Part shown: in pieces, positions 2 to 4,533 of the stretch | How positions within the stretch are numbered: the stretch's first letter is position 1 | Layout: every line of letters begins with the position of its first letter | Source: Desulfobacterales bacterium | GTDB taxonomy: Bacteria > Desulfobacterota > DSM-4660 > Desulfatiglandales > Desulfatiglandaceae | Assembly: GCA_027027005.1 (NCBI GenBank) | Contig: JALVMN010000159.1 | Span: 1 to 38,692, forward strand | Reading direction: 5' to 3' | Length of the DNA stretch: 38,692 nt | Notes under the pieces: model-generated | Databases searched by the model: none | The model's input: the letters and a program-made list of their open reading frames with translations, nothing else | Told to the model about the DNA's origin: nothing | Translations under genes and position numbers: made by a program

Positions 2-493
2 CCTGACCCCACTCCTGTCAAGGACACTTCCCAGGTCTCTTACAGGGACACCAAGGCAAACTTGGTCATTCAATACGGCCCCACCCTCAGGTCTTACGAC
101 AAGGTCCCTGTAACCCTTGGGAAGGGCCCTGGGTGCCAATTTCGGTTGGATCACCCCGCACTCCTGGACCGCCACGCAGAGATATTTTATGTGGAAGGCC
201 AATATTGGGTAAAGGACCTCACCGGCCGCCACGTGGTAATGATAAACGGTAATCCCATCGACCTGGGCGCCCCTCTCAATCCAGACGATATCGTGGCCCT
301 AACCCCAGAGGGTCCGGCCTTCAAGTTCCTGGGTGGAGGAAGATTGTTGGAGGTGGAGTTGGAGCCGAGGCCCCCTGAGGCGGGGACTCCTCCAGAGGCC
401 CAGGAAAAAGAAAAGCCTGCAACACAGGCCGAAGAAAAGAAAAGCACATCGAAAAAGGCCAGGTCCTTTTTTTCAAAATACCTTAAACGCTAA
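2..493 (+). CDS. FHA-domain protein, 5' end outside the window (partial)
   Basis: The ORF track starts this gene at a TTG at 62, but the same frame is open without a stop back to base 2, so the true start probably lies left of the window. Counting from the TTG, residues 5-100 have an FHA beta-sandwich pattern (LGKGPGCQFRLDHP, then DRHAEI, then INGNPI). A low-complexity Pro/Glu/Lys tail follows, ending in a basic segment (SKKARSFFSKYLKR). FHA domains bind phosphothreonine, usually through the Arg of GR and the Ser of SRxH. Here these positions read GK and LDRH, so the binding pocket looks altered. It is co-directional with a sheath-like gene and a kinase-like gene, which suggests a regulatory or scaffolding role in a shared complex. 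The fold call is fairly sure; the role is inference. Confidence 0.75.
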   Translation, partial: PDPTPVKDTSQVSYRDTKANLVIQYGPTLRSYDKVPVTLGKGPGCQFRLDHPALLDRHAEIFYVEGQYWVKDLTGRHVVMINGNPIDLGAPLNPDDIVALTPEGPAFKFLGGGRLLEVELEPRPPEAGTPPEAQEKEKPATQAEEKKSTSKKARSFFSKYLKR

Positions 494-529: not shown

Positions 530-2092
530 ATGAATCTACCCGCATCCACATTCCGCATCCTCTCCTTGGGGCCTTTCAACGCCAAGAGTGACAGTGATTC
601 CAATATATTGTGGCTCAACCCAGAAGACTTGCCCCAGGCACCATCAAAGGTTGGGGCCACTGTGGCAGTGCGTGTTTCCAAGGAGATAACGCCCGATGAG
701 TATCTGGACCTTCGGTTTCAAAGGATCACGGATTTTAGGCCCGAGAGGATTCTGAGGGCCAATCCTTTGCTGAAAAATGTCCTGGAGGCCAGAGACTATG
801 TGCTGGAGGCCAAAAAGAAGAAGATTGGTTACTCCGAGATTTTGGAGCGCTTGAGGTCCTGGCCAGGTCTTCCTCCCATCAAGTTTGAGATACCTCAACA
901 AGACAAGAGAGCCACCGAGTCGTCCAGTGGTATTGACGAGATACTCAAAATGGTGGCCCTCCCAGGAGAACACTCAGGCCCTGACAAGGCAGGTGATACC
1001 ACCAGCGGCCAGTTGGAAGCATTTCTTTCCAAGGCGCTCAGGGAGATATTTGCAGATACCACCTTCAAGGCCATGGAAGCCGGTTGGCAGGGACTGGACC
1101 TTTTGGCCAAATACGGCAGTGAGGCAGAGATTGAACTGGGGATCTTACCAATAAGCGCCGAAGGGCTGTATGATCTGATTGACTCCCTGGTGGGACGCCT
1201 GGTGACCGACCTACCCAATCTCGTGGTGGTGGACTACCCATTTGATGCTTCTTCCAGATCCATGAACCTGTTGGAAAGGTTAGGCAATTTGGCAGAGACC
1301 TTGATGGTCCCGGTACTGGTCTGGATTGGCCCTGGATTTTTTCATTTGGGTGATTGGTCTGAGATTGAAAGCATAGGTTTTATCCCACATTATCTTGACC
1401 GGGCCGTCTATGGGAAGTGGAACTCCTTGAAAAACAAGCCTGTTTCCCAATGGATGGTGGTCACATGCAACCGGTTTCTGGCAAGATTCCCATATGGGAC
1501 CTCTTATCCGTCCAGGGAGGTTATGTTTCAAGAGCCGACCCCACCCTGGGTGAGCCCGGTATGGGGGCTGGCGGCCCTGATTTGCACTTCACTTGCAAGG
1601 ACCGGCTGGCCTGCCCTCTTTACAGGCTCTTCCCAGGCCTCTCTGGAAGACCTGGGGCTGCTGGGAAGTGGCCCTGACGACGTGCTCTGCACTGAATTTT
1701 CTCCCACCTCGGAGCGGGTGGAGCAACTGGTCAGTGCAGGGCTCGTACCCCTTTGTCCGGTCAGGAAAAGGGATCAGGCCTTTTTCCCCTTTGAAAGGAC
1801 CTTGGGGGGTGGCTCCCTGGCATATCAACTGGTCCTGAGCAGGGTGGTCCAGATCTTGCTATGGTGTAAAGAGCATCTCCCAGGAGATTTGGAAGGCACT
1901 TTGCTGGAGCAGGAGGTGAGCAGGATAATATCCAAGTATTGGGAAAAAACCGCAAGGATACCCCTTGAAATGCTTCAGGTCTCGGCCTTTGGGACCGAAG
2001 GAAAAAGAGGAGGACAGTTGTCAGTGACACTCAGGCCCTCTCGGAAGGTCCTGCCTTCAAATGAGGAGATCAGGCTCGATATGGCGTGGTAA
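530..2092 (+). CDS. TssB-TssC-like (type VI secretion sheath-like) fusion protein
   Basis: A 520-residue protein that I read as a fusion of the two contractile-sheath families of type VI secretion. Residues 8-115 resemble TssB: an FRILSLGPF strand, then LRFQRITDFRPERILRANP followed by LLKNVLEAR, close to the family's LxFxSxDDFxPexxxxxxPxLxxLLexR pattern. Residues 165-520 resemble TssC: FKAMEAGWQGLDLL, then FLARFPYGTSY (family PRxLLRLPYG), then the SPVWGLAALICTSLA segment followed by GW, and a C-terminal beta-rich end with VTLRPS. TssB and TssC are normally separate genes and co-assemble into a sheath around the Hcp tube. A ribosome site AGAGG lies 8 bases before the ATG. No Hcp, VgrG, TssK or baseplate gene is visible in the window. 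It could be a full sheath subunit or a sheath-derived scaffold. The family resemblance was read by eye. Confidence 0.65.
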   Translation: MNLPASTFRILSLGPFNAKSDSDSNILWLNPEDLPQAPSKVGATVAVRVSKEITPDEYLDLRFQRITDFRPERILRANPLLKNVLEARDYVLEAKKKKIGYSEILERLRSWPGLPPIKFEIPQQDKRATESSSGIDEILKMVALPGEHSGPDKAGDTTSGQLEAFLSKALREIFADTTFKAMEAGWQGLDLLAKYGSEAEIELGILPISAEGLYDLIDSLVGRLVTDLPNLVVVDYPFDASSRSMNLLERLGNLAETLMVPVLVWIGPGFFHLGDWSEIESIGFIPHYLDRAVYGKWNSLKNKPVSQWMVVTCNRFLARFPYGTSYPSREVMFQEPTPPWVSPVWGLAALICTSLARTGWPALFTGSSQASLEDLGLLGSGPDDVLCTEFSPTSERVEQLVSAGLVPLCPVRKRDQAFFPFERTLGGGSLAYQLVLSRVVQILLWCKEHLPGDLEGTLLEQEVSRIISKYWEKTARIPLEMLQVSAFGTEGKRGGQLSVTLRPSRKVLPSNEEIRLDMAW

Positions 2093-2125: not shown

Positions 2126-3979
2126 ATGGAAACTGCTAAATTCGGAAAATACCATCTTATAGAGCAGATAGCCGTTGGCAAGGTGGCACAGGTCTGGAAG
2201 GCACAGATCACGGGCATTAAGGGCATGGAGCAATACCTTGTGATAAAGAGGCTGCTCCCGCACCTGAGTACCAAGAAAGGGGTGGTTGACATATTCCTCG
2301 GCGAGGCCAAGCGGGTGGTGGGGCTTCGTCACGAAAGCATCGTGAGGATATATGACTATGGGGCCATTGAGGGCACCCCCTATGTAGCCCAGGAGTATGT
2401 GGAGGGAAAGGACCTAGGGGCCTTTATGGCTGCCATCCGCCAGAGAGGTCGCGCCTTGGGATTGGACCAAGCTGTTTATATCATTGAAAAAATAGCTGAA
2501 GCACTGGATTTTGCACACAAACAGGACCTGATTCACGGGGGGCTTTCTCCTCAAAACGTCCTGGTCTCACGCAGGGGGGAGGTAAAGGTAAGCGATTTTT
2601 CCATCTCAAGGGCTGCCCTGGAGGGTATGGGTGATGACCCTGAGACCCTGGAGAAGTCTGCCCCTTATTTGAGTCCAGAATTCGTGACCCAAGGCCTGAT
2701 AAATGTAAAGACTGACATCTTTTGTGCTGGGGTCTTGTTTTGCGAGTTGCTCACCGGACAACCCTGGCTCGGCGGTGACCCTAAAAGGGCCCTTTCTGCA
2801 TTAAAAGACCAGGGGTTTGACCCCGCAAGCCAAGTACCAGAGGATCTTCCCCAAGGGCTCCGGGACATCCTCAGGCGTGCCCTTGCTAGAGACCCTGCCA
2901 AAAGGTATCTCTCGCCCACCATAATGTTTGAAGAGATAAAGAGGGTGGTAAAGAACCTTGCTGCCAAACCCTCCGGTGAAGAGGTGGCAGACCTTATCGT
3001 TGAACTCTTTCCCAAGGTGGAGGCAGCAAAAAAGGCGGATCAACAAGAAGAGGTAGAGGAAGGCCAAGAAGCCCCCGAGCAGAGGCCAGAGGCAGCCAGT
3101 GTGCCAAAGCCGGATTCAAGGGCGGCTGCAACAAAGAAGCTCCTCCTTGGAGGCATTGCAGCACTCTTGGTGCTGGGCCTTGCTGCTTTTTTCCTCTTTA
3201 GCCGCGGGGACGAGGAAGAGGGGTTTGCTACACCAGGTGCCCCAGGGATTACAGCCAGCAAGGGCAGTGTGGATAGCCCTGCTCCTCCCACCCAGGGCAA
3301 GGCCTCTGTTGAGAGGCCTCAGGCACCCGACACGGTCCAGGAAGGCGCACCTAAAAAGGAGGCGCCCCCGGATACCCCAGAAAAACAACCCCCGCCCGAT
3401 CCCGGCCGACTGGAGCTCCAGAAGGGGGTGGAGGCCCTCGCCCAAGGCCAATATGATAAGGCCATATCCATATTCAAGGCGGTTGCATCAAAATACCCGG
3501 AATTAAAAGAGGACCTTTCAATTCCATACTCCCAGGCACTGGAGGCCAAGGCCAAAACCATCCTGGACAAGCAGCCCAAGAGGGCCACGGCACTCCTCAA
3601 AGAGGCCGTTTCCCTCAATCCCGAAAATGTGGAGGCCCACTTTCACCTTGGCCTCCTCCATGGAGACCAAAAGAAATTCTCCATGGCCATTGATGAATAT
3701 AAGAGGGTGGTGCAGCTAGACCCTCAATATGCAGATGCCTACTTCAACCTGGGATATATCTATGCGGTGAGAAGGGATTATGAAAACGCTGAGAAGGCAT
3801 ACAAAGAAGTGGTTAACCTTGCGCCCCCATACCTGGACGAAGCCCTCTTTAACCTGGCCATGGTCCAAAAAAGGCTGGGAAAAAGAGAGGCATGCATCCA
3901 GAACCTGAAGAGGGCCATCATAGTGAATCCTGACAACAAGCTGGCCAAGAAGTATCTAAAAAAGATGACGGGCAAATAG
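2126..3979 (+). CDS. Kinase-fold (probable pseudokinase) membrane protein with periplasmic TPRs
   Basis: 617 residues: a Hanks-type kinase domain (about 7-280), an acidic linker, one membrane helix (about 339-359), a Pro-rich stretch and at least four TPR-like units to the end, predicted outside the membrane. The VAIK lysine (K41), the alpha-C Glu (E60), the Asn of the catalytic loop (N144) and the Asp of the DFG position (DFS, D157) are present. The HRD motif reads HGG (137-139), so the catalytic Asp is missing, and the glycine loop is reduced to AVGKVA. The protein is therefore probably a pseudokinase or a very weak kinase. The start is an ATG 33 bases after the sheath-like gene with only a weak ribosome site. 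Its neighbours (FHA, TssBC-like) recall the PpkA/Fha control of type VI secretion, but that link is inference. Confidence 0.8.
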   Translation: METAKFGKYHLIEQIAVGKVAQVWKAQITGIKGMEQYLVIKRLLPHLSTKKGVVDIFLGEAKRVVGLRHESIVRIYDYGAIEGTPYVAQEYVEGKDLGAFMAAIRQRGRALGLDQAVYIIEKIAEALDFAHKQDLIHGGLSPQNVLVSRRGEVKVSDFSISRAALEGMGDDPETLEKSAPYLSPEFVTQGLINVKTDIFCAGVLFCELLTGQPWLGGDPKRALSALKDQGFDPASQVPEDLPQGLRDILRRALARDPAKRYLSPTIMFEEIKRVVKNLAAKPSGEEVADLIVELFPKVEAAKKADQQEEVEEGQEAPEQRPEAASVPKPDSRAAATKKLLLGGIAALLVLGLAAFFLFSRGDEEEGFATPGAPGITASKGSVDSPAPPTQGKASVERPQAPDTVQEGAPKKEAPPDTPEKQPPPDPGRLELQKGVEALAQGQYDKAISIFKAVASKYPELKEDLSIPYSQALEAKAKTILDKQPKRATALLKEAVSLNPENVEAHFHLGLLHGDQKKFSMAIDEYKRVVQLDPQYADAYFNLGYIYAVRRDYENAEKAYKEVVNLAPPYLDEALFNLAMVQKRLGKREACIQNLKRAIIVNPDNKLAKKYLKKMTGK

Positions 3980-3994: not shown

Positions 3995-4471
3995 ATGAAA
4001 AAGGTCTGGCCCCGTAAGGCGATAATATTTCTGGCAGGCATGTTCCTGATGGGCGGGTGTATCACTATGGGGAAGAAGGCCCCTGAGCCGCCACCAACAC
4101 CTCCACCTGCGCCACAACCCGTGGTGGAGGAAAAGCCTCCCCTTCCTCCTCCACCTTCCCCCAAGCCAGCCCTTGAGCCGGAGTTGAAAAAGGAGGAACC
4201 AAAGGTTCCACAATATCTTGAACACGTGGTGAGATGGAGCGGAGAGTCCTTTTCCCTCATCTCCAAGTGGTATACCGGAAAGTTCAGCAACTGGAAGGCC
4301 TTGGTAAAGGCCAATCCAGAGATAAATCCAAGACGCATGAGAAAGGGGCAGATTATTCGAATTCCCATGGAGCTGGTAAAGACCCAAGAGCCAATGCCAA
4401 AGTCATTTGTGGAAAAATACACCTCCAAGAAGAGCGAGGAAGAGCCTGTTCTTTTTGGCCCCAAGAAGTAA
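3995..4471 (+). CDS. Proline-rich lipoprotein with LysM-like domain
   Basis: 158 residues. The N-terminus is a lipoprotein signal: positive MKKVWPRK, a hydrophobic stretch and a lipobox LMGGC. A Pro/Glu/Lys-rich spacer (about 30-75) should let the domain reach into the periplasm. Residues 78-128 look like a LysM or LysM-like fold (EHVVRWSGESFSLISKWY, then NWKALVKANPEINP, then GQIIRIP), a family that binds glycan strands of peptidoglycan. A strong AGGAGG lies six bases before the ATG, and the gene follows the kinase-like gene by 15 bases. It is the last gene before an intrinsic terminator. In context it may anchor the upstream gene products at the envelope, which is inference. Confidence 0.75.
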   Translation: MKKVWPRKAIIFLAGMFLMGGCITMGKKAPEPPPTPPPAPQPVVEEKPPLPPPPSPKPALEPELKKEEPKVPQYLEHVVRWSGESFSLISKWYTGKFSNWKALVKANPEINPRRMRKGQIIRIPMELVKTQEPMPKSFVEKYTSKKSEEEPVLFGPKK

Positions 4472-4493: not shown

Positions 4494-4533
4494 ATCCCTC
4501 CTTGTCTTTTGAGAAGGCAAGGAGGGATTTTTT
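4494..4533 (+). terminator. Intrinsic terminator after the lipoprotein gene
   Basis: An 11-bp perfect stem (ATCCCTCCTTG / CAAGGAGGGAT) can be extended inward by four pairs including one G-U, and is followed at once by six T residues. It closes the left gene run and separates it from korB. Confidence 0.88.

Follow-up and report, generated by a model that had tools for sequence, protein, structure and literature searches.

The window analysed here is a stretch of 38,692 nucleotides from a Desulfobacterales bacterium. Base 1 of the window is the end of its contig (C159). A four-gene unit lies at this edge and comprises the features below.

2–493, plus strand: 3' part of an FHA-domain gene (TagH/Fha-like, double FHA; FHA Pfam match, 2e-10), truncated by the contig start
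530–2092, plus strand: single-chain TssB-TssC sheath-like protein, 520 aa (Pfam, PDB, orthologues, AlphaFold2, Foldseek)
542–844, plus strand: TssB-like domain, residues 5–105, without the ~28-residue N-terminal arm (hhalign)
929–964, plus strand: conserved lone helix IDEILKMVALP, residues 134–145, inside a low-confidence linker and resembling the TssC ClpV-docking motif
998–2089, plus strand: TssC-like domain, residues 157–520 (hhalign, AlphaFold2 secondary structure, Foldseek)
2126–3979, plus strand: transmembrane kinase-like protein with TPR repeats (Pfam kinase and TPR; transmembrane stretch)
3995–4471, plus strand: LysM-like lipoprotein (weak LysM matches; lipobox LMGGC)
4494–4528, plus strand: strong terminator-like hairpin (16 bp and a T-run) after the LysM gene, closing the four-gene unit

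The second gene starts with ATG and its frame is open. An initial annotation had read this ORF as TssB fused to TssC, and had pointed to DF.P, LARFPYG and WGLAAL segments, all of which are present. The fusion is borne out by Pfam, hhalign, AlphaFold2 and Foldseek. Briefly, Pfam detects T6SS_VipA (PF05591; E=2.2e-5, 24.7 bits against a cut-off of 24) and VipB (PF05943; E=1.1e-29, 104 bits against a cut-off of 27), on separate parts of the protein and in the order TssB then TssC. The T6SS_VipA score is higher, at 37–42 bits, in two other family members (L063 and L057). A PDB search returned VipB and TssC chains at ~1e-14, and TssB weakly. Since VipB and T6SS_VipA occur in one chain, which also matches VipB and TssC in the PDB, we conclude that the fusion of TssB and TssC in one protein is real. 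The profile comparison proposed alongside the fusion was run with hhalign and gave significant matches to both canonical proteins. Residues 5–105 align onto TssB 29–137 (98.4%, E=5e-15) and residues 152–508 onto TssC 64–479 (E=2e-37). Chance similarity of motifs is ruled out by the two Pfam matches and by orthologues of equal length and the same architecture. Note that the fusion, though genuine, stays well short of the NCBIfam cut-offs that define true TssB and TssC. Scores are 21.5 against 97.25 bits for the TssB equivalog TIGR03358, and 81.2 against 271.5 bits for the TssC equivalog TIGR03355.

The fusion is a conserved family. Besides the window's own genome, 10 of 98 relatives searched have full-length orthologues, with 35–53% identity. 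Scanning genomes of ~85,000 species with an alignment query gave 26 loci, labelled nearly all as Desulfobacterales, Deltaproteobacteria or related MAGs. The 27 aligned members are almost throughout Thermodesulfobacteriota, share 30–53% identity with the window's copy, and are invariant at 33 positions, the final W520 among them. Phage records contained no fusion, merely weak partial TssC-like matches. Apparent full-length fusions on Vibrio and Sinorhizobium plasmids resolved into distinct tssB and tssC genes that had been read through in a single frame. No published TssB-TssC fusion of this kind was found in a search of open-licence papers, and the passages retrieved from Boyer 2009 do not mention one. 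The window-type fusion is, apparently, so far undescribed.

Members of the family occur together with type VI secretion. Among 395 sampled genomes of the phylum, 44 are TssK-positive. Close members of the fusion family, defined as scoring >200 bits against A1, number 18 in this sample, one of them (G417) broken, and are spread over nine families. All 18 co-occur with a T6SS: TssK is present in the genomes of 16, and TssF in those of the remaining two. Ignoring kinship, the hypergeometric chance is 5e-19 that all 18 fall within the 46 genomes known to have a T6SS. For TssK alone (16 of 18 within 44 genomes) the chance is 4e-15, kinship again ignored. Two genomes considered as carrying the fusion without a T6SS, G256 and G391, were ruled out as such because TssF was found in both. 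In G256, the fusion sits inside a tssE-F-G-H-fusion-vgrG cluster. The initial annotation saw no Hcp, VgrG or baseplate genes, and proposed looking for them upstream of base 1, where the contig ends. The observation holds for the window but not for the genome. The assembly that contains the window (97% complete, 8.9% contamination) carries a canonical tssA-tssB-tssC-hcp-tssE-tssF-tssG-tssH-vgrG cluster on contig C387, and tssK on contig C363. Three pentapeptide-repeat genes directly follow vgrG in this canonical cluster (L033:11512-16023) and recur near the fusion in relatives. There is a strong case that the fusion is a T6SS-associated sheath paralogue, and its accessory status beside the canonical T6SS is well supported.

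We modelled the fusion with AlphaFold2, using the 27-member alignment (pLDDT 86, pTM 0.86). Confidence is below 50 only at residues 122–134 and 142–155. When the model was compared with the PDB using Foldseek, T6SS sheaths led the matches (VipB at 2.9e-21, then Myxococcus and Pseudomonas TssC), and phage and pyocin sheaths followed with a weaker fold match. A sheath-protomer fold is thus predicted. The TssB half is indeed shortened, as had been claimed, and what is missing is the first ~28 residues. In canonical TssB, residues 1–28 are the donor arm for the inter-protofilament handshake, which needs this arm (PMC5807055). Neither hhalign nor the alignment finds a counterpart in the fusion, and in the aligned rows 27/27 members have at most 7 residues ahead of the first TssB strand. 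A missed upstream start cannot hide the arm, since only 12 open codons precede the ATG (an open frame of 532 aa). In most other members, the open frame extends by 2–18 residues upstream, too short a stretch to encode the arm. Judged from the alignments and these reading frames, absence of the arm is not a start-codon error.

Other parts of the protomer are kept. According to the solved Pseudomonas structure, a pair of strands in TssC is completed by two others: a C-terminal strand from TssC of the same protofilament, and the TssB N-terminal strand from another protofilament (PMC5807055). The C-terminal TssC strands are retained in the fusion model (481–487, 496–502 and 514–519), and the hhalign match extends to TssC residue 479. 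VipB residues K223 and D333 have roles in assembly, and contraction is stopped by a longer VipA linker (PMC5797969). The putative counterpart of K223 is a lysine in 25/27 members and that of D333 is D or E in 23/27, with both counterparts inferred from the PDB-search alignment. The fusion has in common with canonical TssB/VipA and TssC/VipB both domains, the protomer fold, the TssC C-terminal strands and several interface residues. It differs in being one chain, in lacking the TssB N-terminal arm, in its sub-cut-off NCBIfam scores, and in co-existing with a canonical pair.

Between the two domains, a helix is modelled at residues 134–141, flanked by the two low-confidence stretches. It is highly conserved (L139 27/27, V142 27/27, P145 26/27), with the consensus [IVL][DE]x[IL]LxMV[AS]xP in most members. 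The N-terminal ClpV-docking motif of TssC is LLDEII (PMC4239648), and the corresponding motif in the host genome's own TssC is LLEEIV. By its resemblance to this motif, the linker helix could bind ClpV. However, its MV-A-x-P extension is unlike LLDEII, so it may bind something else.

The partners of the fusion are also recurrent. In most scored loci, a double-FHA gene adjoins the fusion on the same strand, within 300 bp; in other loci it is slightly farther off or cut away by a contig end. Intact orthologues of the FHA protein (L034 and L048) have two FHA domains. The best NCBIfam match of the L048 protein is TagH (3.6e-23), at 83.1 bits and so below the cut-off of 120.25, and the FHA protein is also similar to FhaB. 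Kinases and PP2C phosphatases are frequent near family members. Two families without Pfam matches also recur there (~255 and 258 aa; L063:11574-12344 and L073:12501-13277). In the window, the catalytic loop of the kinase-like protein reads HGGLSPQN, instead of HRDxKxxN, and the HRD aspartate is absent. The operon kinase is therefore a predicted pseudokinase. Four LysM lipoprotein orthologues have an N-terminal sequence with a lipobox.

Genes of the window's clade run in the order ftsA-ftsZ-radical SAM-FHA-fusion-kinase-LysM lipoprotein (L034, L044 and L048); L037 follows the same order but ends after the fusion. The window and L034 have the order FHA-fusion-kinase-LysM-oxidoreductase in common, so ftsZ probably lies upstream of the window too. 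HRD is replaced by HGG, HGN, HAG or HGG in all four dcw operons with a kinase (the window and three orthologous operons). Kinases near other members keep HRD wherever the catalytic loop can be read. The dcw-linked copies fall in one six-member tree clade (support 93/93), which also takes in L036. This is consistent with one relocation. In the window's clade, the fusion gene is not near T6SS genes. Elsewhere, it lies between tssH (clpV) and vgrG (L080) or has T6SS genes within ~10 kb (L098 and L074).

Similar arrangements are known. Agrobacterium has a second TssC, TssC40 (Atu4340), likewise a sheath-like paralogue that comes in addition to a functional TssC, and not an equivalent of the genuine sheath subunit (PMC3702570). 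Unlike the fusion, TssC40 is described as a TssC homologue, rather than a TssB-TssC fusion, and is inside the T6SS operon. A T6SS locus of Sinorhizobium americanum also has a second TssC-like ORF (479 aa; L101:5835-7274) just after tssC, like the consecutive tssC genes of Agrobacterium. In Acidovorax, a TssW-PpkA-Fha axis positions and starts the T6SS (PMC12607579). Such threonine-phosphorylation modules share with the unit described here an FHA protein, a transmembrane kinase-like protein and an envelope lipoprotein, with a phosphatase nearby in many relatives. The fusion's module differs by adding a sheath-like protein and, in this clade, by a kinase without the catalytic aspartate. The operon kinase, seemingly inactive, would not be expected to phosphorylate Fha in the classical PpkA manner. 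We have moderate confidence that the fusion works with an Fha-type module, one comparable to the Acidovorax axis.

Our preferred reading, to which we give a probability of about 0.5, is that the fusion mimics a sheath protomer and, as part of an Fha/kinase/lipoprotein module, serves the canonical T6SS as an accessory adaptor. The fusion would be held at an envelope-linked T6SS assembly site by Fha and the kinase-like protein. There, its sheath-like face would dock canonical TssB-TssC, as a first ring, cap or brake. Alternatively, the fusion would bring in ClpV. Since the arm is absent, the protein would join the sheath (or baseplate) at one face and would not propagate the inter-protofilament interlock. 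Docking of this kind would suit a role in starting, ending or licensing sheath assembly, rather than building the sheath. Whether as cap, nucleator or ClpV adaptor, the exact role is something that we infer. The reading is weakened by the distance of the gene from T6SS genes in the window's clade, by the seemingly inactive operon kinase, and by the departure of the linker helix from LLDEII.

The main rivals of the adaptor reading are antagonism of ClpV or TssBC, and a division-linked scaffold. As an antagonist or recycling adaptor, the protomer mimic would sequester ClpV, or free TssB and TssC, and so restrain the T6SS while the Fha module is idle. An arm-less protomer with conserved sheath interface residues, whose flexible linker contains a conserved ClpV-like helix, would fit such a role; the putative ClpV motif, however, differs from the one in canonical TssC, and we regard this explanation as rather unlikely. 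Were the FHA-fusion-pseudokinase-LysM module to serve division and no longer the T6SS, it would be a repurposed cell-wall signalling scaffold, like actinobacterial Fha/Pkn clusters. The module directly follows a murG..ftsQ-ftsA-ftsZ run in four genomes, and the window shares the downstream synteny. The unit contains a LysM lipoprotein and a pseudokinase, and the FHA protein resembles FhaB as well as TagH. Yet the position by ftsZ is confined to one clade, all members of which still have a T6SS, and elsewhere the FHA-fusion pair adjoins T6SS or PP2C/kinase genes. Hence, we consider a scaffold devoted to division unlikely. It is similarly doubtful that the ftsZ-linked adaptor, kept together with Fha, the pseudokinase and a lipoprotein that would bind peptidoglycan, ties type VI secretion to the programme of cell division. 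If it does, a division-coupled adaptor would nucleate or license T6SS sheaths at a set cell-cycle stage or envelope site.

The initial annotation had suggested a minimal sheath or a non-contractile scaffold. For the former, fused protomers would polymerise into their own tube or scaffold, independently of the canonical T6SS. Both protomer halves are in one confidently folded chain, and the sheaths of phages and pyocins, also among the Foldseek matches, are single-chain. Note, though, that contractile phage tail, R-pyocin and eCIS sheaths self-assemble with both arms present, while the sequence and strongest fold match of the fusion are those of the T6SS. Moreover, 27/27 members lack the inter-protofilament arm, a canonical T6SS is present in every genome checked, and the dcw loci contain no further set of Hcp, VgrG or baseplate genes. 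A stand-alone minimal sheath is thus very improbable. The scaffold proposal may hold in part, as an accessory to a normal T6SS with FHA and kinase partners, but not as a separate machine. It is scarcely credible that the fusion is decaying or accidental. The broken copy in one relative (G417), and the lack of linkage to T6SS genes in the host genome, would fit decay. Against this, the ~520-aa frame is intact, and many residues are invariant over the 27 members despite their divergence; such conservation refutes a functionless pseudogene.

A second class of fusion occurs in other Thermodesulfobacteriota. These 'type II' TssB-TssC fusions (~510–525 aa) are found around tssH and vgrG. Similar proteins lie between tssH and vgrG on Rhodobacterales plasmids, annotated only as the sheath large subunit. 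Across Thermodesulfobacteriota and Rhodobacterales plasmids, this class is represented by L091:18337-19911, L090:2235-3800, L085, L083, L102:10459-13650 and L103:11998-13749. Type II proteins keep an N-terminal extension of about arm length but are without the C-terminal domain of TssC. In the tree, the two classes fall into separate clades. Both are one-chain and accessory to a canonical T6SS, and the position of type II between tssH and vgrG is also that of the window-type fusion in L080. That a different arm is missing in each class suggests recurrent evolution of non-propagating sheath subunits. How T6SS sheaths are started and capped, and how this is tied to Fha/PpkA control, is understood in part only. 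A natural arm-less single-chain protomer, encoded with Fha, is a candidate link from the signalling module to the sheath. In soluble form, a protomer in one chain would also lend itself to structural studies. A Poribacteria contig encodes, at L077:1475-4984, a tandem pair of TssB-TssC fusions (545 and 612 aa). Both match VipB_2 weakly at the C terminus, and they may belong to a contractile system whose sheath subunits are fused.
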